The position numbers and the translations under genes are program-made. Under the pieces are notes generated by a model that made no database searches, had not been told where the DNA came from, and saw only the letters and a program-made list of their open reading frames with translations. This document shows, one piece after another, positions 52,735 through 64,000 of a stretch of 64,000 bases of DNA (position 1 is its first letter; every line of letters begins with the position of its first letter). This stretch comes from Qipengyuania mesophila (lineage in GTDB: Bacteria; Pseudomonadota; Alphaproteobacteria; Sphingomonadales; Sphingomonadaceae): contig NZ_JAIGNU010000001.1 of assembly GCF_019711655.1 (NCBI RefSeq), positions 558,001-622,000 of the forward strand. The letters are read 5' to 3'.

Positions 52735-53337
52735 CTAGTCTCGTTGGAGCGAAGATGGCCCACTCGCTGCGTGTTCGATATAAAGATCTGCTCGCCAATC
52801 CACATCGAGCAGCAAGCCATGATCCCTCGGCTCGATCATGGATGAATTTGGGAGATCCAGATTGCGGGCTCCTCGATCACCCGTCAGCTTGAGCAGCTCT
52901 GCGAAGGTTTTGCGCTCGAAGCCTGCAGGGCATCCGGCATTGCCGTCTTCATATCGAGTGTAAGTAGTGCCTTTGCCTGATGCTATCTGTCGCAGGTGCA
53001 TTGCGCTCATTATCGGCATATCGGCGAGGCCGATGACGACACGATCGTGGCGCATTGCGGCAGCTACACCCGCGGCGATGGATGTTCCCATGCCCTTTAA
53101 GGCATCAGCATTTACGACTTCCTCCCAACCGGCCGGCACGCGGACAGACGAGTGCTCGCCGATCACCAGGAACCGCTCGTGAAAGCCCGCTTGCTCTGCC
53201 GCGTCGGCGGCCCAACGCCACAGGGGCTTGCCCTTGTAAGGACTGCTAAGCTTGTCGCCGCCAAATCGCTCACTGCGACCGGCTGCGAGCAGGATGAATG
53301 CGATCGTCCGGTCAGGCACCGGTACACAGCCGTTCAT
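52735..53337 (-). CDS. MocA-like nucleotidyltransferase (molybdenum cofactor)
   Basis: The product is 200 residues with the NTP-transferase signature ILLAAGRSERFGGDKL and the metal-site region GLADMPIMSA. MocA-like enzymes attach CMP to the molybdenum cofactor for xanthine-oxidase-family enzymes, which matches the upstream subunits. The start lies inside the end of the xdhC-like gene (26-base overlap). It is the last gene of the molybdenum hydroxylase operon. Confidence 0.85.
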   Translation of the reverse strand: MNGCVPVPDRTIAFILLAAGRSERFGGDKLSSPYKGKPLWRWAADAAEQAGFHERFLVIGEHSSVRVPAGWEEVVNADALKGMGTSIAAGVAAAMRHDRVVIGLADMPIMSAMHLRQIASGKGTTYTRYEDGNAGCPAGFERKTFAELLKLTGDRGARNLDLPNSSMIEPRDHGLLLDVDWRADLYIEHAASGPSSLQRD

Positions 53338-54163
53338 ATTGCGCGACCACTTCGGCCAGCGCGGACAGCGCCATCGCCGCGGGGGTCTTGCATGAAGGGA
53401 TAAGGCCAACCGGGCTGCGGATGCGCGCAATCTGCTCTTCAGGTACGCCGCGACCGGTCAGGCTGAGCGAGCGGACCTCACGCGCTCTTTCCCCGCCCTG
53501 GGCGCCCACGAAGAACACATCGCTCGCAAGCACTTGTTCGAGCAGCGCCATTTCCCATTCATGGTCGTGAAACAGAAAGAGCGCCGCGGTCCATCGATCG
53601 AGCAGACAATTCGGTGCCGGTTTGTCGAGCGACAGGTGGGTCTTGTTGTAGGTCGTCACATCCAGCCGCAAGGTTGTGGCCAGTTCCTCCACATACTCCA
53701 ACTCCGGTCCCTCGCCGAAAACCGCCAATCGCAGGGAGGGCAGGTAGCGGCGTATCGCAAGTCGTGATTTGCACGGAAGGGTAAGATCGGCGGGGGTGCG
53801 CTTCGCCAACTGGCTCCTAGCCATACGACAGGCCGTCCGGTCCGGGAATGGATCGAGCAGGATGTCGAGCCCTCCACCGCATGGCAGCCGGAAGTCGATC
53901 TTTCCCGATCCCGCACCATAACGGATCACCCGCGGCTCGGCACAATCGAGGAGGTCCGATGCGAGCTGCGCTTCGAGGCAGCCATCGGAGAGACTTCCGA
54001 CCGTCGACCCATCGGCCTTTACAGCCAGTTGAGCACCCAGCCGCCGTGAGAAGCTGCCCTCGATACCGACGATGGTGCACAAGCCGACGCCCGGCTCGCA
54101 GGCCGCGGTAAGCGCCTCATGGTCCTCGTCGATGACCTCGGTCGCATCCAGCTGCCCCAGCAT
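53312..54163 (-). CDS. XdhC/CoxI family maturation protein
   Basis: The product is 283 residues. The N-terminal XdhC domain has LCTIVGIEGSFSRRLGAQLAV and GSLSDGCLEAQLA; the C-terminal part is a Rossmann-like domain (LRLAVFGEGPELEYVEEL) with VFFVGAQGGERARE. XdhC inserts sulfurated molybdenum cofactor into xanthine-dehydrogenase-family enzymes. ATG 54163 overlaps the stop of the large subunit gene by one base. Confidence 0.88.
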   Translation of the reverse strand: MLGQLDATEVIDEDHEALTAACEPGVGLCTIVGIEGSFSRRLGAQLAVKADGSTVGSLSDGCLEAQLASDLLDCAEPRVIRYGAGSGKIDFRLPCGGGLDILLDPFPDRTACRMARSQLAKRTPADLTLPCKSRLAIRRYLPSLRLAVFGEGPELEYVEELATTLRLDVTTYNKTHLSLDKPAPNCLLDRWTAALFLFHDHEWEMALLEQVLASDVFFVGAQGGERAREVRSLSLTGRGVPEEQIARIRSPVGLIPSCKTPAAMALSALAEVVAQYERLCTGA

Positions 54164-56352
54164 CAGTCGGGCATCGCTGCCAGGACGCGCTCGGGCGTCA
54201 TCGGGTAATCGAAAATGCGCGCCCCACAGGCATTGTAGATCGCATTCACGATCGCCGCCGCCCCGCCGCACATTCCGAGTTCGCCAATGCCCTTGGCCTG
54301 GATCGGGCTCGCCGCAGGATCGCGCTCCTCGACCAGGAGAACCTCGAGGTCGGGCACGTCGCGATTCACGGGCACGTGGTATTCGGCGAGGTCGCAATTG
54401 ACGAGATGCCCGTCGCGCGGATCGAATTCGAGCGCCTCGGTAAGCGCGACACCGATGCTCCACGTGATGCCGCCCAGGCATTGCGATCGCGCTGTCTTGT
54501 GGTTGAGTACGCGGCCGAAACCGAACGCGCCGAGCATTCGATCGACCCTCGTCTCCCCGGTGAAGCGATTGACGCGTACCTGCGCGAAAAACGCCCCGAA
54601 ACCGGAGGCGGTGTAGTCGTCCTCGATGTCGCCTGGCTCATAATGACCCTCGCGAACGATATCCTTTCCATCGAGCAAGTCGACCAACGCCTCGCCCGAA
54701 GCGGCCGTGCCGTGCGCAAGATCGAGGTCGGTTTCTTGCACCCCCAGCTTGTCCGCGATTTCCTCGCGAATGGCCTTGCATGCGACATAGACCGCCGAAC
54801 CGGTGGAAGCGGCGCCCCAGCTGCCGCCAGAGCCCGGTCCTCGCGGATGGCGGGTGTCGCCCAGGTCGACGAGGATGCTGTCGGGCGCGAGGCCGAGCAT
54901 TTCTCCCGCGAGCTGGGCCAGGATGGTATAGGTGCCGGTGCCGATATCGGTCATGTCGGTTTCGACCAGCGCGGTCCCGTCGGCCTTCAGGGTAACGCGG
55001 GCTCTCGCTTCGGCGATATTGTGCACTCGCGCCGCGCTGGCCATGCCGGTGCCGACCCACCATTCACCATCCCGCGAATGGCGCGGCTTGCGCAGTCCGC
55101 TGTCCCAACCGAACGCCTCCGCACCCTGCTTCAAGCACTCCGCGAGCTTGTGCGAGGAGAACGGCAGGTCTTCCTCCGGGTTCTGGTCCGGGATGTTTCT
55201 GAGGCGCAATTCGACCGCATCGATACCCACCTTTTCGGCCAGCACGTCCATCGCGCTTTCGAGTGCGGGCATGCCCACCGCCTCGCCGGGAGCGCGCACC
55301 GAACCCGCGGTCATCCGATGGACACGGGCAACCTCGAGCATCAGTTCGCGATTTTCGCCACCGTAGAGGAAGTGCGAGGATTGCAGGACCGGTTCGACGA
55401 AGGTTTCGCCCGGTAGGTTCGACGCCAGCGCATAATGGCCGAAGCCTATCAGCCTGCCGTCCTCCCCCGCTGCAAGCCGCAAGCGCTGTGTCGTTTCGGA
55501 GCGCCGCATGATGCATTGGAAGACCTGCTGTCGGGAAAGGGCGACCCTGACCGGTCGCCCCAGTTCCTTGGCTGCTATCGCCGCCGCGACGACTTCTTCG
55601 CTGATCCCGAGCTTGGAGCCGAACCCTCCGCCGACGAAGCGCGAGATCAGGCGAATGTCCACCTCCTCCATGTTCAGCGCGTCGGCCAGCTCGCTGATAT
55701 TGTAGTTGAGCATCTGCAGCGACGCGTGAACCGTCAGCTTGTCGCCATCCCACCGGGCGATGGCGGCGTGCGGCTCCATTGCCGCCGAGGCGTGACCCTT
55801 GGTCGTATAGGTGACATCGACGGTATGAGCGGCCTTGGCCATCGCATGGGCGAGGTCGCCCTGCCGGACGGTCTCGTCTTCCTGTTCTTCCGGCTCGACA
55901 GCCTGGGGATCGAGAGGAACCCCCTCCTCTTCGCGGTACTCTACGGCGAGATGTTTCGCCGCGTCGCGGGCCTGCTCGAAGGTTTCTGCCACCACGAGGG
56001 CAATGGGCTGGCCCCAGTAGCAGACCGTTTTCGGCCCCTGTTGGGGAGCTTCGTCGGCCGTACCTTGCGCCGCGCGGGTAATGAGTTTGGGATCGTCGAT
56101 GACTGCGATGACGCCCGGCATGCCCAGGACGGCATCCTTGTTGATGCTCAGAACCTTTCCGCACGTAATGGTTGATGTCGCCAGCACGCCCTCGGCACAG
56201 CCATCCACGGCGTATTCGGCGGCATAGGGAGCTGTTCCGGTGACCTTCGCCAAGCCTTCGATGCGAGGAATGGCCTTGCCAAGCACCCCCTGCTTCATCG
56301 CGTCGAGACGGTTGGACCGGTCCGGCTTGTCCTGTTTCATATGGGCGGTCAT
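54163..56352 (-). CDS. molybdenum hydroxylase large subunit (PaoC-like)
   Basis: The product is 729 residues with the aldehyde oxidase/xanthine dehydrogenase molybdopterin domains. FVGGGFGSK, GSVRAPGEAVGMPALESAMD, GGSWGAASTGSAVY and the catalytic Glu in AKGIGELGMCGGAAAIVNA are visible. It would hydroxylate an aldehyde or heterocycle. The closest match by shape is periplasmic PaoABC, but no Tat signal is found on the small subunit, so the complex is likely cytoplasmic. Confidence 0.9.
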   Translation of the reverse strand: MTAHMKQDKPDRSNRLDAMKQGVLGKAIPRIEGLAKVTGTAPYAAEYAVDGCAEGVLATSTITCGKVLSINKDAVLGMPGVIAVIDDPKLITRAAQGTADEAPQQGPKTVCYWGQPIALVVAETFEQARDAAKHLAVEYREEEGVPLDPQAVEPEEQEDETVRQGDLAHAMAKAAHTVDVTYTTKGHASAAMEPHAAIARWDGDKLTVHASLQMLNYNISELADALNMEEVDIRLISRFVGGGFGSKLGISEEVVAAAIAAKELGRPVRVALSRQQVFQCIMRRSETTQRLRLAAGEDGRLIGFGHYALASNLPGETFVEPVLQSSHFLYGGENRELMLEVARVHRMTAGSVRAPGEAVGMPALESAMDVLAEKVGIDAVELRLRNIPDQNPEEDLPFSSHKLAECLKQGAEAFGWDSGLRKPRHSRDGEWWVGTGMASAARVHNIAEARARVTLKADGTALVETDMTDIGTGTYTILAQLAGEMLGLAPDSILVDLGDTRHPRGPGSGGSWGAASTGSAVYVACKAIREEIADKLGVQETDLDLAHGTAASGEALVDLLDGKDIVREGHYEPGDIEDDYTASGFGAFFAQVRVNRFTGETRVDRMLGAFGFGRVLNHKTARSQCLGGITWSIGVALTEALEFDPRDGHLVNCDLAEYHVPVNRDVPDLEVLLVEERDPAASPIQAKGIGELGMCGGAAAIVNAIYNACGARIFDYPMTPERVLAAMPD

Positions 56353-57331
56353 CCCGCGCCCTCCGCTGCGGGTTCGAGGACGGCGTGAAGCGCGCGCCGG
56401 GCGAGCGGGATCTTGAAATCGTTTTCGCCAAAGCCCCGCGCATCTGCGAGAAGGATGTCGGCAGCGCGATCGATCGTTTCGCTTGTCGGCGGCTGGCCGA
56501 TCAAGGCTTCGCCGACACGCGGATCGTGCCAGGGCTTGTGCGCCAAACCGCCGAAAGCAAGGTCCGCCCGCGTGAACAGACCGTCTTCCATCTCGACGAT
56601 GGCGGCGACCGAGACCAAGGCAAAGGCATAAGACGACCGCTCGCGCACCTTGCGGTAAATCTGGGTGCCCCCCACCGGAGGCGGCAGGGTGATAGCCGTA
56701 ATGATTTCGCCCTCTTCGAGGACGTTCTCACGCCAGGGCGTATCGCCCGGCAGGCAATGGAACTCGCGGACCGGTACCGTCCGCTTCTCCCCATTGGCCG
56801 TCGCAATATCGACGCTGGCGTCCAGGGCGCTCAGCGCGACCGCCATGTCTCCGGGATAGGTCGCGATACATTGCTCGCTCGTGCCAAGGATGGCGTGCAA
56901 TTTCGCGACCCCATCGATCGCGCCGCAGCCGCTGCCCGGATCGCGCTTGTTGCAGGGCTGATCGACATTGGTGAAGTAGAAGCACCGCGTTCGCTGACAC
57001 AGGTTCCCCCCGTTCGTCGCCTTGTTGCGGAGTTGCTGCGTCGCGCCGGAAAGAATTGCGCGTGCCAGGACCGGATAATCGGCACGAACGCGGGGATGGA
57101 CGGCGGTGGCGGTGTTTGTTGCCAAGGCTCCGAGAGAAAGTCCGCCAGCCTGCGTGTCCTCGATCTCGCCGAAACCGATCCGATTAATGTCCGCGAGCTT
57201 TTCCGGCGTTTCGACCTGCAGCTTCATCAGGTCGAGGAGGTTGGTGCCCCCGGCGATCGCCATCGCGCCGTCGTCTGCGACGACGCGGGTCGCCTCCTCA
57301 ATCGTCCGCGGCCTGCCATAAGCGAAGGGTC

Positions 57332-57335
<4 letters not shown>
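56349..57335 (-). CDS. molybdenum hydroxylase FAD subunit (PaoB-like)
   Basis: The product is 328 residues, a CO-dehydrogenase-flavoprotein fold with the FAD segment AIAGGTNLLDLMKL. Between the FAD motifs lies CQRTRCFYF and, later, PCNKRDPGSGC, four cysteines that bind an extra [4Fe-4S] cluster in PaoB and 4-hydroxybenzoyl-CoA reductase. Overlaps both neighbours by four bases. Confidence 0.9.
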
Positions 57336-57838
<503 letters not shown>

Positions 57839-59193: not shown

Positions 59194-61506
59194 TTACCCT
59201 GTGGCCTCTCTCGCGGCGAAACAGGGCTGCTCGAAAAGCTCTTGTATGGCGTATGCGGGGAGAGGTTTGCTGAAGAGGTAACCCTGTACGAAACCACATC
59301 CCTCATCGCGCAATATCTGGCATTGTTCTTGGCTTTCCACCCCTTCAGCGAGCGTGTCCATCCCGAGCGCCTCGGCCAAAGTGGTGATGGCGCGGATTAC
59401 CGCGTTGGCGTTGGTTCCCTTTGCGGTAAGGTCCCGCACGAAGCTCTGATCGATCTTGACCTTGTCGAATGGGAAGCTGCGCAAGTAGCTAAGCGATGAA
59501 TATCCCGTTCCGAAATCATCGAGGGCGATCCGCACGCCAAGCTCGCGAAGGCTGTGAAGCATGCCGAGCGTCCGTTCGACATCCACGATGAAGACGCTCT
59601 CCGTAATCTCGAGCTCGAGGCGGTTGGGCTGGAGCCCTGAGTTCGTAAGGGCTTGGAGAATCGTGGACGCAAGTCCGGGAGCGGAGAACTGTTTCGGTGA
59701 AATATTGACAGCGACCGTCAAATGGTCTGGCCACTCGCATGCCGCGCGACAGGCTTCGCGCACAACCCAGTCACCTATCTGGAGGATCAAGCCTGTTTCC
59801 TCGGCGAGCGGGATGAATTCGGTTGGACTGATCAAGCCCCGCTTTGGGTGGTTCCAGCGTATCAGTGCCTCGAAGCCCTCGAGCCGTTCCTTTCTTAGGC
59901 AATAGAGCGGTTGGAAATAGAGCTCGAATCCACCGTCCTTGATCGCCAAGCGAAGGTCCAGCTCCATCTCTCGCCGCCGACGCGCCTGTTCGTCGAGCGA
60001 GGGCTCGAAGAAATGAAAATCCGACTTTCCTTCCTTCTTCGCGCGATAGAGCGCGAGGTCGGCGTGTTTCAGCAAATCGACGCCGTTTTCGGCATCCATC
60101 GGGGCTACGGCGACGCCCACGCTGGCCGAACAGTCAGCCGTCTGCCCATCGATCTTGATCTGTCGCTCGAAGCATTCCTGCACACGCTGTGCGATGGGAA
60201 GCAGGCTCTCCTCCTCGTCCTCGACAACCATGAGGACTGCGAACTCGTCGCCACCCAGTCGGGCGACTTGGGCCTCTGCGAGTTCATCGACGAGGCACTG
60301 CGCCACGAACCGCAGCAGCGCGTCGCCGGCAGGATGGCCGAGCGTGTCGTTCACGACCTTGAAGTCATCGAGGTCGCAATAGGCCACCAGCACTCGCTCG
60401 TTCCCCTTGCGACGGATCAATGCCTGGTCGAGCTGTTCGATGAAGAGTTTGCGATTGGGCAGATTGGTTAACCCATCGTGCAGGCCGACATGAATGATCC
60501 GCCGCTCACGCTCCTCGATTGCCTCCACCATAGCATTGAAGCTCGACGCCAGTCGTCCGACTTCATCGTCGGTCTCGACCTGGACGATGATGTCTTCGCC
60601 CCGACCGAAGCGGCGGACCGCATCGTCGAGTGCTGACAAGGGACGGGTGATACCTCGCGCAATACGCCAGCCCAATGCCACGACCAGTACCAATCCGGTC
60701 GTTCCGACCAGTGCAAGCAGGTATTTCAAGACTGCATATTCCGCGAGTGCCTTGGCGAGCGAGTGTCGCAAGACGAGGCGCGGTGCGAGCCCATCCTGCA
60801 GGCTTGGCAGGCTGCTCACCCAATAGAGATTGCGCGCGGCATCGTTCGCCTCGACTACAGTCCCCGGCGGTCCCGACGTCGCGATAGCGGGAAGTTCTTC
60901 CTGGAGCTGGACGCTGGCTCCGAAATCGACAGCGGCGAGTTCGGCCAAACGGGCCATGGCTGCCTTGTCCAAGGGTGAAGCAAGCACGAGCCAGCCGGCA
61001 AGATCGGGGACCTCGATCGGAGATGCAGTCGCCAGCGCCAATTTGCCGCCGAGTTCGATCACGCCCTTGTTCTTGCCGGAATCGAGTTCGCCCCAGATGT
61101 CCTCTACCGGGGGCAGGCGGCTAGACCCGTCGCTGATGATGGTTCCATCGAGGCCGACCACGAACGCGCTCGCGGCCTGCGACCGGTCCCGCAGGTTTCG
61201 CAGGGCGCTTGAAAGCGTTGGCTCGTCTCCGGTCGCGAGTGCCTCGCGGAAGCCGAAGTCGCGCGCCAACACGTCGGTTGCTGCGCGCATCTGCCTTGCC
61301 CGCAGATCGACAATTTCGTCGAAGACACGAGCGCTGGCAGCCATGTCGCGGCTGGCGGAACTCTCGCCGAACCGCTCTATGCTGGCGTTCACTACGACCA
61401 TGACCACGGCGAGGACAGCGGCGAAGAGCCCCGCATAAAGCACGGCTATGCGCAGCTTGAGCGAAGAGAAACTCGGCAGGGCAAGGCGCGGAAAGACGGT
61501 TCTCAC
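59194..61506 (-). CDS. membrane GGDEF-EAL protein
   Basis: The product is 770 residues: TM1 (about 19-41), a periplasmic sensor region of about 215 residues, TM2 (about 258-283), a HAMP-like segment, a GGDEF domain (RLGGDEF at 416-422, intact) and an EAL domain (EALIRW at 546, with [13 protein letters not shown]). Both c-di-GMP synthase and phosphodiesterase active-site signatures are present; no product-inhibition RxxD site is seen before GGDEF. It overlaps the blue-copper gene by four bases (ATGA). Confidence 0.92.
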
Positions 61507-62123
61507 CGCAAGCGCACCGAAATCTTCTGGTCCGTTGCGCCATTCACCTGCTTTACGACCTCACCGGAAGGCGTACGGATACGGGGATGCCAGACGGTTA
61601 GCCTCGCGGTTCCCGCCGGCACTCCCGAAAGCGTTACATAGCCATTCGCGTCGGTCTTGCCGGCAAATGGGGTGTCGACGACGCGAATATAGCCACGCAT
61701 CTTGTCGTGAATATTGCATCCCAGAGCCACGGATCCGCTGACGGGGAAAGTGTGCGTGCGCGACTGGTCACGACCATAGAGATCGATTTCGAACCGCGCA
61801 GGCTTTGAGAAACTGTAGATCGAGTGACGCACCCGATCGAGGTTCGGGAAGGCTACGGTACTGCCGCGAGCGACCACGAGCGTACCGGGTACGAAGGCTT
61901 CGTCCTTCTGGGCCATGGCCATCCGCCAGGGAAAAGTGATCCGCGTGTTCCTAGCCGACGGACTGTCAAGTTCTATGACGGCGTCACGCACCGGAACGCC
62001 TCTTTCGTCGACCACCTGCACCTTGATGGACCCAGCAGAGGCTGCGCCTGCGATCGAGGCGGGCACGGCTAGCAAAGCGGCGAGTAAGGCGAATGCGCGT
62101 AAGGACACCACCTGCGCATACAC
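61503..62123 (-). CDS. exported blue-copper-like protein (methylamine utilization-like)
   Basis: The product is 206 residues with a signal peptide (to ...AASA). A cupredoxin-like core has His100 (RHSIYSF) and Cys136-x2-His139-x2-Met142 (GCNIHDKM), the type-1 copper ligand set. A carboxypeptidase-regulatory-like beta region follows ([24 protein letters not shown]). The family is annotated as methylamine utilization protein, but no methylamine dehydrogenase is here. It is upstream of, and overlaps, the GGDEF-EAL gene. Confidence 0.85.
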
Positions 62124-62194
62124 AGAAGCCGGTTAATAAAACGTCCGCAGAGGGTTAACCGCTTTTCCATCATATGTTGCAAGAAGCTACCGCT

Positions 62195-63118
62195 ATGAAT
62201 CAGCTCCTGAGATATGCGACGTTACCGGTGGCGCTGGCTATCTCCCATGCACCAGTGGCCGCGCAAGACGCTCTGCCTGAGAAGGAGGCGGTGCCTCAGC
62301 CTTCGTCGATCGGATCCTTCACGGATTACAACGCCAAGCTGTTGCTCACCAACGGGGTCAGCGCGATTGACGGCGCCAGCGGCGGTGGAATCTCCGATTG
62401 GGCCACAATCGCCGGCCGGCAGGAAAGCCGTGGTGTGGGCTTTCAGGCGCATGTCACGGCAGTCCTCTTGCCCGACTATCTTTACCAGTCGCACGGCCTC
62501 TCGGTGGGCATCGCCGACCGGCTCGAACTATCCTATGCGCGGCAGAATTTTGACACGCGGGAGGTCGGGGCCGCACTTGGGCTCGGCCGAGGCTACACGT
62601 TCAATCAGGATATCTTCGGCGCCAAGGTCCGGCTCTTCGGCGATGTCGTTTACGGTGATGAACTGCTTCCGCAGGTATCCGCCGGAGCGCAATACAAGCG
62701 CAGCCTCGATGGCCCCATCGTAAACGCAGTGGGCGCTGCGCATGACAACGGCCTCGATTTCACCCTCAGTGCGACCAAGCTGTTCCTCAGTAGGAGCATA
62801 TTGGTCAACACGACTGCAAGGCTGACAAAATCGAACCAGAACGGATTGCTCGGCTTCGGCAGCCACGCAAACGATGGCTATGCGCTGCACTTTGAAGGAG
62901 CGGTTGCCTATCAGTTTTCGCGACGGTTCGTCTTGGGGGGTGAATTCCGCAGCAAGCCCGATAATCTCGGCCTTGGGGAGGATGACTGGTTGGACATCTT
63001 TGCCGCCTACGCGCCAACCGACAATCTGACACTGACGGCTGCCTATGCCGATCTGGGATCGATCGCGACCTTCGGCGGTCAGCGCGGCGCTTTCCTGCAA
63101 GCGCAAATTGCCTTCTGA
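62195..63118 (+). CDS. DUF3034 outer-membrane beta-barrel protein
   Basis: The product is 307 residues with a signal peptide (ALAISHAPVAAQ). It has alternating amphipathic strands and a terminal AFLQAQIAF, consistent with a barrel. DUF3034 has no assigned function. ATG 62195 (MNQLLRY) is preferred over ATG 62174. It is divergent from the blue-copper gene with about 70 bases between, so the promoters may be shared. Confidence 0.85.
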   Translation: MNQLLRYATLPVALAISHAPVAAQDALPEKEAVPQPSSIGSFTDYNAKLLLTNGVSAIDGASGGGISDWATIAGRQESRGVGFQAHVTAVLLPDYLYQSHGLSVGIADRLELSYARQNFDTREVGAALGLGRGYTFNQDIFGAKVRLFGDVVYGDELLPQVSAGAQYKRSLDGPIVNAVGAAHDNGLDFTLSATKLFLSRSILVNTTARLTKSNQNGLLGFGSHANDGYALHFEGAVAYQFSRRFVLGGEFRSKPDNLGLGEDDWLDIFAAYAPTDNLTLTAAYADLGSIATFGGQRGAFLQAQIAF

Positions 63119-63129
63119 CGGAGAGATCG

Positions 63130-63660
63130 ATGTTGTGTAGCGCCATCCTTGCCCTGTTTTTCATGCAACAGCCCCCCGCGGACACTATCGACTGGGACGA
63201 GGAGTTCAGTGTCGAAACGGTGGAGCGCGATCCGTCCACTGGCGAGGTGCCAACCGACCCTTACGACCAGAGCAACGCCAATGCCGGGGCTGTTCCCTTC
63301 GAGGGTGAGTCGATGGCTGCACGGTTTGGAGGTCAGGACGGCATCCGGCGTATCGTCGAGCGCTTCGTCGATTTGAACTTCGCCGACCCGCGGATCGCCG
63401 CGATCTTCGAGGGCCATGACGAAGTGCGATTGCGCCGAACGCTGTTCGAGCAATTCTGCTACATTCTCAATGCGGGTTGCGACTATACCGGCCGCGACAT
63501 GCGCAGTTCGCACGAGGGGCTCGGCAGCCGCAAGGCGGATCTCAACGCCGTCGTTGAGAACCTCCAGCAGGCGATGCACGAAGAAGGCGTGCCATTTGCG
63601 GCGCAAAATCGCTTGCTCGCGAAGCTTGCGCCGATGAAGGGTGACGTCGTCGAGCGCTGA
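63130..63660 (+). CDS. group 1 truncated hemoglobin
   Basis: The product is 176 residues. A short hydrophobic N-terminus (LCSAILALFFMQQ) and an acidic linker precede the globin (FGGQDGIRRIVERFVDLNFADPR). The proximal His is in MRSSHEGLG, the usual trHbN position. The N-terminus suggests export or membrane attachment, unusual for these cytoplasmic proteins. It is 11 bases after the DUF3034 gene. Confidence 0.88.
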   Translation: MLCSAILALFFMQQPPADTIDWDEEFSVETVERDPSTGEVPTDPYDQSNANAGAVPFEGESMAARFGGQDGIRRIVERFVDLNFADPRIAAIFEGHDEVRLRRTLFEQFCYILNAGCDYTGRDMRSSHEGLGSRKADLNAVVENLQQAMHEEGVPFAAQNRLLAKLAPMKGDVVER

Positions 63661-63770
63661 AAGGCCCTGATTTCAATTCTGCAGTGGCAAGATCGGCCGG
63701 ACGAGCGGACTGGCTGTTCTCAGGCATTTCTGATCAGTGGACGAACGTCCAGTCTGAGGGCGCAAAGCAG

Positions 63771-64000
63771 TCATTGGCCGAAGCAACTCCACCATTCCGG
63801 CCAGCTCACCTTCCGCGGCGTCCGCGTCGCGTTCCAGACAGTCTTCTGCTCCGCCACTGAGAGCTGTCGGTCGCCAAGGCGATTGAGAGCTTTCTCCACG
63901 ATCCACGGATTGATTTCCCATCGAACGCGATCTTTGTCCGTCGGGTATTTCTTGATGGCAATGCCGAGCGGTTCGAGGATGGCATCCATACCAAGCCCGA
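63771..64000 (-). CDS. unidentified gene, possibly running past the window edge
   Basis: The frame stays open to the right edge; ATG 63989 gives 72 residues ending WPEWWSCFGQ. It contains a basic, Trp-rich segment (KYPTDKDRVRWEINPWIVEK). I do not recognise it. The start may lie outside the window. Confidence 0.5.
   Translation of the reverse strand, partial: GLGMDAILEPLGIAIKKYPTDKDRVRWEINPWIVEKALNRLGDRQLSVAEQKTVWNATRTPRKVSWPEWWSCFGQ

Follow-up and report, generated by a model that had tools for sequence, protein, structure and literature searches.

A candidate trans-envelope sensory system built around a copper protein and a dCache receptor in Pseudomonadota

A Four-Gene Cluster in Qipengyuania mesophila

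The subject of this article is a set of four adjoining genes near the end of a 64,000-nucleotide stretch of the Qipengyuania mesophila genome (assembly GCF_019711655.1, contig NZ_JAIGNU010000001.1, positions 558,001 to 622,000; this whole stretch is called the window). They are the GGDEF-EAL receptor gene (GE), the sensor part of whose product is called SEN, the gene of a copper protein (CU), a DUF3034 gene and a globin gene (GLB). A preliminary description made from the sequence alone had grouped a cyclic di-GMP (c-di-GMP) enzyme, a blue copper protein, an outer-membrane barrel and a truncated haemoglobin into an undescribed cluster, and open reading frames (ORFs) together with Pfam searches place all four genes where that description had put them. 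GE and CU lie on the minus strand and overlap by 4 bp, whereas DUF3034 and GLB are divergent from both, GLB beginning 11 bp past the end of DUF3034. The DUF3034 ORF opens at 62174 and the start at 62195 is favoured by its relatives (Table 1).

Linkage and Co-occurrence of the Four Genes

How general is this arrangement? DUF3034 (PF11231) was found in 46 of 397 Pseudomonadota genomes (requested completeness 90%), which belong to 15 families and 29 genera. The surroundings of all 46 loci were fetched, as were further loci around CU matches; loci and genomes are cited below by our numbers (L and G), and the locus counts omit a degraded second copy in G078 (L077) and a duplicate of the window region (L079), while L049 and L124 seemingly stem from one genome present in both locus sets. 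The order CU, GE, DUF3034, GLB on one strand is the most frequent pattern (27 loci), followed by the divergent form of the window (7), DUF3034 and GLB alone (5), DUF3034, GLB and CU (2) and five singletons. All four gene types, each within 5 kb of DUF3034, occur at 36 of the 46 loci, a number that excludes L045, where the GGDEF-EAL gene lacks this sensor, and L074, where the receptor is a Ser/Thr kinase and no globin is found beside it. Clustering of the four genes is far beyond chance. A second set of DUF3034 loci, taken from the best-scoring named 80 of at least 581 relatives and leaning towards Alphaproteobacteria, gave a similar picture: GLB adjoins DUF3034 in 78 and the contig ends there in the other two, the four types lie within 5 kb in 56, and DUF3034 and GLB are alone within 5 kb in 17, one of which (L107) has a CU-GE pair about 6 kb away. 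DUF3034 is also carried by 13 plasmid records, three of which were examined. A plasmid of Novosphingobium sp. EMRT-2 has the gene order of the window, one plasmid of Caballeronia sp. SBC1 carries DUF3034, GLB, CU and GE in this order, and another plasmid of the same strain DUF3034, GLB and CU plus a short 'cache domain-containing protein'.

Presence and absence across the 397 genomes separate the four genes into two pairs. Profile searches matched CU in 98 genomes at 1e-6 and in 62 at 100 bits or more, GLB in 109 at 1e-6 and in 48 at 140 bits or more, and SEN in 61 at 1e-20. At the stricter thresholds CU and SEN occur together in 60 genomes, CU without SEN in 2 and SEN without CU in 1 (37, 2 and 1 when genera are counted), and DUF3034 and GLB together in 46, with none having DUF3034 only and 2 GLB only (29, 0 and 2 genera). 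The corresponding numbers across the pairs are 45, 17 and 1 for CU and DUF3034 and 44, 17 and 2 for SEN and DUF3034. Among the 133 CU genes counted in the fetched loci, a non-random sample since these loci were picked around DUF3034 or CU matches, and all scoring at least 100 bits (weaker ones such as that of L138, 93.8 bits, are left out), a SEN gene lies within 1.5 kb of 122 and within 300 bp of 117. Moreover, the two genes are often retained together even where they are unlinked: of the 69 SEN matches 10 stand more than 3 kb from any partner, as do 12 of the 69 CU matches, and in 9 and 10 of these cases, respectively, the genome has the partner family elsewhere. Both genes are kept, though apart, within one genome in G124, G136, G148, G354, G321 and G015, and in G190 and G335 the DUF3034-GLB pair and the CU-receptor pair stand at separate loci. 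Such unlinked and yet co-retained cases matter more as evidence than Fisher values. Linkage and presence/absence together tie CU to predicted inner-membrane receptors with one kind of dCache domain, and DUF3034 to a truncated haemoglobin, predicted to be exported, in which a Cys pair and a proximal His are conserved. CU and the dCache receptor are the core, and DUF3034 and the globin are an add-on that occurs almost only with this core.

No further module gene emerged, as an all-against-all comparison of neighbouring ORFs in 126 loci yielded no other neighbour shared by more than 7 of them; the seven largest clusters consist almost wholly of other reading frames of the four genes (484 of the 498 ORFs in the largest share more than half of their extent with one of them).

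Two decayed copies were seen. The second DUF3034-globin copy of G078 (L077, G078:C3) is degraded, and the same genome also has an intact copy. A 37-codon match to the C-terminus of GLB (L250, G375:C1:2564158-2564268) lies in a genome of the window's genus that has no matches to DUF3034, CU or the sensor, and such a globin remnant without the other genes looks like loss of the cluster.

The Copper Protein and the Receptor

A Pfam scan of CU alone gives no cupredoxin domain. A profile of 40 aligned CU proteins, including that of the window, matches copper nitrite reductase (5e-7), a blue copper protein (3e-5) and amicyanin (7e-3) in the PDB. All four ligands line up in the alignment with copper nitrite reductase; with the second match His, Cys and His line up and Met faces Arg. 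The copper ligands on which the preliminary description had relied proved to be conserved, as all 40 proteins have His100, Cys136, His139 and Met142, and CU is by this ligand set predicted to be a type-1 (blue) copper protein, the profile match suggesting a cupredoxin fold.

On plasmids CU is annotated as 'methylamine utilization protein' or 'carboxypeptidase regulatory-like domain-containing protein'. L251 has, between a CU relative and a PAS-kinase receptor with SEN, a protein that by eye resembles di-haem cytochrome c peroxidase/MauG, and this neighbour may explain the first name. Methylamine utilization as the function of CU found no support, the window genome having no match to PF02975 (methylamine dehydrogenase), albeit the 14 control genomes were silent too, so that this test is weak. 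No methylamine dehydrogenase gene recurs beside CU.

For GE, Pfam recognizes EAL (2e-74), GGDEF (2e-37), HAMP (9e-9) and, above the cut-off, dCache_3 (PF14827, 1.1e-7). Of 124 sensors, 46 were used for alignment, model and tree. The AlphaFold2 model has a mean predicted local distance difference test score (pLDDT) of 92.6 and shows a periplasmic double Cache domain that follows a long N-terminal helix and lies between two transmembrane segments, as expected for a dCache receptor. Its fold matches are Cache receptors, including McpH, PctA, the periplasmic domain of LuxQ (also in the complex with LuxP, 2hj9) and DctB, with TM-scores of about 0.3-0.6; the CHASE4 domain of IsmP (8wct) is among them at rank 45.

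What does the receptor control? An alignment of 112 rows, made up of 111 receptors and an added row for the window's copy, which thus enters twice, retains the Glu of EAL, both Asp of DDFG/DDYG and the Lys of KID in every row, and the GGDEF motif is exact in 48. Since the EAL residues are kept throughout and GGDEF has often decayed, hydrolysis of c-di-GMP would be the common catalytic capacity, and lowering of c-di-GMP is likely the common output across the family. In GE of the window the catalytic motifs of both domains are intact and this protein may both synthesize and hydrolyze c-di-GMP. Among the 124 SEN ORFs, 111 continue into HAMP-GGDEF-EAL and two (L111, L107) into HAMP-GGDEF, where the fetched stretch ends. 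Behind HAMP five others carry a different output, which by Pfam is a nucleotide cyclase (L225), a histidine kinase (L222) and a Ser/Thr kinase (L234) and by eye a PAS protein with kinase (L251) and another Ser/Thr kinase (L074). Four from Lysobacterales/Rhodanobacter (L138, L155, L156, L157) stop after a HAMP-like stretch without output domain, and two (L086, L104) are uninformative. Receptors with these odd outputs adjoin a CU gene, that of L138 being the weaker one mentioned above. On the sensor tree (46 rows) outputs change five times, four being the minimum for five states; the starred branches alone force fewer changes, and the Ser/Thr kinase and the missing output are perhaps one event. 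A CU that is kept constant while the outputs change is expected if CU belongs to the sensing end.

The Outer-Membrane Barrels and the Globin

DUF3034 of the window matches PF11231 with 300.9 bits (cut-off 25). An AlphaFold2 model built from 37 of the 45 collected proteins (the partial DUF3034 of L054 was left out) has 12 strands at a pLDDT of 81.5, preceded by an N-terminal stretch that is Gly-rich, conserved and poorly modelled. Its closest folds in the PDB are outer-membrane barrels, with FapF as the best, along with porins, OmpG and Omp33. By sequence the sole match among solved structures, to Ika8/Ika4, covers 38 residues and was taken as spurious.

Beside CU genes that lie distant from DUF3034 a second barrel-like family of about 415 residues is frequent, in which Pfam gives BBP2 below the cut-off (7.6e-4) in one of five members tested. 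Its 20 ORFs in the fetched loci all lie within 2.4 kb of CU, three of them inside DUF3034 clusters. It occurs in 18 of the 397 genomes, all 18 of which also have CU and SEN, and genome-wide 17 of 20 matches are within 3 kb of CU. One or the other barrel is present in 57 of the 62 CU genomes (the exceptions are G021, G052, G064, G145 and G148), and among the 335 genomes without CU in G078 only. The second family can take the place of DUF3034. L225 and L243 share a third neighbour that appears barrel-like by eye. In L223, L224 and L227 CU and the second barrel are preceded by genes that by eye encode a TonB-dependent receptor and a PiuC-like protein, and a link to iron is possible there.

GLB of the window scores 6e-9 and 36.5 bits against PF01152 (cut-off 21), and the best-scoring solved relatives of a profile of 45 GLB proteins are HbN entries (1e-24). 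All 45 share Cys110, Cys117 and the proximal His128, and 44 have the CD1 Phe, which marks GLB as a predicted group 1 truncated haemoglobin, that is, a 2/2 globin with proximal His. Of the globins met in print, one in a paper on Acidithiobacillus is of group 2 and unrelated to GLB, and those in a paper on cable bacteria are domains fused to cytochromes. The distal pocket is hydrophobic. Among the 45 aligned globins B10 is Leu in 22, Val in 12, Ile in 8, Met in 2 and Asn in 1, and E11 is Leu in 36, Phe in 8 and Ile in 1, these positions having been mapped by hand from an ungapped alignment of GLB with HbN, in which Tyr33 of HbN is visible. E11 of HbN is Gln58; the HbN entries shown carry Val there. 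None of the 45 globins has either the TyrB10 or the GlnE11 of the NO-dioxygenating HbN type, in which the distal Tyr and Gln are needed for NO dioxygenation.

Is the globin exported, as had been proposed? For the family this appears to hold. Of the 45 globins 30 carry a lipobox pattern, and the N-termini of most others look, by eye, like Sec signal peptides; L050, counted with the remaining 15, seems to have a lipobox and L063 seems to have lost the Cys. GLB of the window begins MLCSAILALFFMQQ, which is short, hydrophobic and without a basic residue, and the proposed export of this copy therefore leans mainly on its relatives.

The Divergent Region and Neighbouring Genes

The motif GGTTAA/TTAACC occurs in 18 of 26 divergent stretches between CU and DUF3034 in Sphingomonadales (26 of 28 loci, as L080 and L097 gave an empty stretch), compared with a mean of 2.0 in shuffled sequences and 0.8 in windows drawn at random from these loci, the motif having been picked after the sequences were seen and the genomes being related. 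We take it to recall a CtrA half-site, which, if real, would tie the module to the motility programme. Boxes of the FNR type and of the form TTAA-N7-TTAA are absent from the 26 stretches, and a scan of 62000-64000 for sigma-70 promoters and terminators found nothing.

Genes for a molybdenum hydroxylase adjoin the cluster at 53312-57838 on the minus strand, with Fer2, FAD and molybdenum cofactor subunits (Pfam) and an XdhC-like ORF (by eye); they are outside the module. After the globin, at 63673-64000 and beyond (L001), follow two small neighbouring ORFs with KKGQSGNPxGRP motifs, which presumably resemble DUF5681.

Table 1. Features of the cluster; positions count from the first letter of the window.
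Feature	Position	Strand	Evidence
GE: predicted inner-membrane receptor dCache-HAMP-GGDEF-EAL, 770 aa, GTG start	59194..61506	-	Pfam; GGDEF and EAL motifs intact
SEN, GE residues 1-285: transmembrane segment, periplasmic dCache, transmembrane segment	60652..61506	-	AlphaFold2 and fold matches
GE GGDEF domain, residues 343-495	60022..60480	-	PF00990 2.1e-37; RLGGDEF motif intact
GE EAL domain, residues 517-748	59263..59958	-	PF00563 2e-74; EAL, DDFG, KID, AEGVE, QGY motifs
CU: predicted exported cupredoxin with C-terminal carboxypeptidase-regulatory-like stretch	61503..62123	-	profile of 40; PF13620 1.6e-7, just below cut-off
CU His100, first predicted copper ligand	61824..61826	-	invariant 40/40
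CU C136-N-I-H139-D-K-M142, remaining predicted copper ligands, C-x2-H-x2-M loop	61698..61718	-	C, H and M each 40/40
Divergent intergenic region with GGTTAA/TTAACC motifs	62124..62194	.	motif in 18/26 related Sphingomonadales stretches
DUF3034, predicted outer-membrane barrel	62195..63118	+	PF11231 1e-89; AlphaFold2; fold matches
GLB: predicted group 1 truncated haemoglobin, export-type N-terminus	63130..63660	+	PF01152 6e-9; profile of 45 against HbN 1e-24
GLB Cys110 to Cys117, probable disulfide	63457..63480	+	both invariant 45/45
GLB His128, predicted proximal (F8) haem ligand	63511..63513	+	invariant 45/45

A Possible Mechanism and Its Alternatives

How could these proteins act together? 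The cluster is probably one version of a larger modular trans-envelope sensory system, in which CU partners the dCache receptor and an outer-membrane end feeds in the signal. That CU is the periplasmic partner of the receptor is well supported, and that redox is the signal is what we infer. In the mechanism that we propose CU would dock on the dCache domain in the manner of LuxP with LuxQ and of NspS with MbaA, and the state of CU, oxidised or reduced, or with or without copper, would be the signal read by the receptor. The barrel would give access to the outside, and the periplasmic globin would react with a small molecule or with an electron donor or acceptor and hand the change to CU. HAMP would then switch the output, in the window c-di-GMP turnover. 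Electron transfer seems the likeliest signal because haem-type proteins adjoin CU, namely the globin and, in one locus, the MauG-like protein; a redox signal of copper plus haem may well be the right one, though we would not quite commit ourselves to it. More tentatively, the family might represent a new class of receptors in which a blue copper protein serves as removable redox 'ligand' that reports the supply of electrons or the presence of a reactive small molecule at the surface, through a chain of barrel, haem, copper and receptor across both membranes with a disulfide-locked haemoglobin at the outer end and interchangeable ends.

Several observations weigh against this picture. The thresholds for CU (100 bits), GLB (140 bits) and SEN (1e-20) were chosen with the score lists already seen, and the Fisher values, albeit tiny, were computed without regard to descent. 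There are exceptions to the pairing, as a SEN gene within 1.5 kb is missing for 11 of the 133 CU genes, G019 and G052 have CU and no SEN at the threshold, G119 has SEN and no CU, and G078 has DUF3034 and GLB and neither CU nor SEN. The SEN profile has no meaningful relative by sequence in the PDB; the tie to LuxQ and CHASE4 is one of fold only, at TM-scores of about 0.4-0.6. The alignment of 46 sensors has no invariant column, so that it singles out no surface for docking. Odd outputs number only five, and on the tree just two of these fall into one group with real support. Furthermore, linkage could reflect co-regulation without contact between the proteins.

Does the receptor read the supply of a metal or of haem instead? 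Supply of copper or haem as the signal is possible and rather less probable than redox. In its full form this explanation, by which the barrel imports copper or haem, these are bound by CU and the globin, and the receptor reads the occupancy of CU and not its redox state, strikes us as unlikely, and it is nevertheless a serious rival, all the more as Pseudomonas aeruginosa CHASE4 receptors, which SEN resembles in fold (8wct), are reported in the available part of one paper to bind haem, Cu2+ or Fe3+ (PMC13277305). The TonB-dependent receptor and PiuC-like gene in L223, L224 and L227 would also suit it. On the other hand, genes for uptake or efflux are not among the recurring neighbours in the 126 loci, and the full type-1 site of His, Cys, His and Met, complete in 40 of 40 proteins, is usual for electron carriers and less so for copper chaperones.

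The preliminary description had left open whether the module senses or detoxifies redox compounds, NO or oxygen. Of its elements, a conserved module, copper and haem-type proteins that look exported and a c-di-GMP enzyme as output are borne out. Detoxification of NO or O2, in which the globin would dioxygenate NO with electrons donated by CU and the linkage to the c-di-GMP enzyme would be incidental, draws on the HbN entries as best-scoring solved relatives of the globin, on copper nitrite reductase as the best PDB match of the CU profile and on the known donation of electrons by cupredoxins in denitrification. We hold it to be improbable, since the distal Tyr and Gln are absent from all 45 globins, replaced by hydrophobic residues apart from one Asn at B10, which disfavours NO dioxygenation; in addition, 15 genomes with CU and the sensor lack this globin, and the four matches to the copper nitrite reductase family in the window genome are weak, none reaching the cut-off. 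The further proposal of control over the biofilm state is an extrapolation, and in a few other genomes the output behind this sensor is a histidine kinase, a nucleotide cyclase or a Ser/Thr kinase instead. Finally, the flow of information might run from inside to outside as in LapD, with the cytoplasmic c-di-GMP state being relayed to CU, the globin and the barrel for an action at the surface such as adhesion or secretion. The amyloid secretion barrel FapF as best fold match of DUF3034, albeit among other barrels, and the decay of GGDEF in more than half of the rows would fit, yet LapD is catalytically dead, unlike the receptors with their intact EAL residues, and kinase or cyclase outputs fit signalling from outside to inside, all of which makes this option the most improbable of all.

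If the sensory system proposed here is real, it would provide a function for DUF3034, for a family of exported truncated haemoglobins and for a copper protein annotated 'methylamine utilization protein', all of them common in Pseudomonadota, and a testable route from extracellular redox or metal state to c-di-GMP, for which the natural swaps of output suggest ready-made reporters. The cluster indeed seems to be undescribed: by title or beginning of abstract no description was found in the open literature, a search that leaves subscription papers mostly outside and covers broad queries in part, and the mentions of DUF3034 met there are, in the passages concerned, on other matters. The main text of a census of c-di-GMP stimuli contains neither 'copper' nor 'cupredoxin' (PMC8846402).

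Comparison with Known Systems

How does the cluster compare with what is known? CU has the C-x2-H-x2-M spacing of the copper loop of amicyanin, which its profile also matches, and differs by the extra C-terminal stretch, the receptor partner and the absence of a recurring methylamine dehydrogenase gene. GLB shares with HbN the fold, the proximal His and the CD1 Phe and differs by its export signals, the invariant Cys pair and the hydrophobic distal pocket. Envelope-spanning control of c-di-GMP is exerted by YfiBNR, in which, as in HmsCD, a diguanylate cyclase has a redox-sensitive partner in the periplasm; unlike in YfiBNR, the four window proteins have no YfiR or OmpA-like Pfam domain, and the partners here would be copper and haem proteins. 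HmsCD is similar in spanning the envelope, HmsC being described in part of the same census as periplasmic, as carrying Cys pairs and as linked to the diguanylate cyclase HmsD (PMC8846402). The P. aeruginosa CHASE4 receptors IsmP/PA2072 and PA0847, reported in the available part of their description to respond to haem, copper or Fe3+ (PMC13277305), likewise combine a periplasmic Cache-type sensor with a c-di-GMP output; in their case the receptor itself binds the cofactor, that part names no cupredoxin partner, and their relation to SEN is at the level of fold only. Most similar in layout are LuxP-LuxQ and NspS-MbaA, the latter a bifunctional c-di-GMP receptor according to an excerpt of its description (PMC8967002), as both join a periplasmic partner to an inner-membrane receptor and LuxQ is among the fold matches of SEN. 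In these systems the partner is a substrate-binding protein, whereas here it would be a cupredoxin, as judged by profile, accompanied by a barrel, a globin and outputs that are swapped between receptors.

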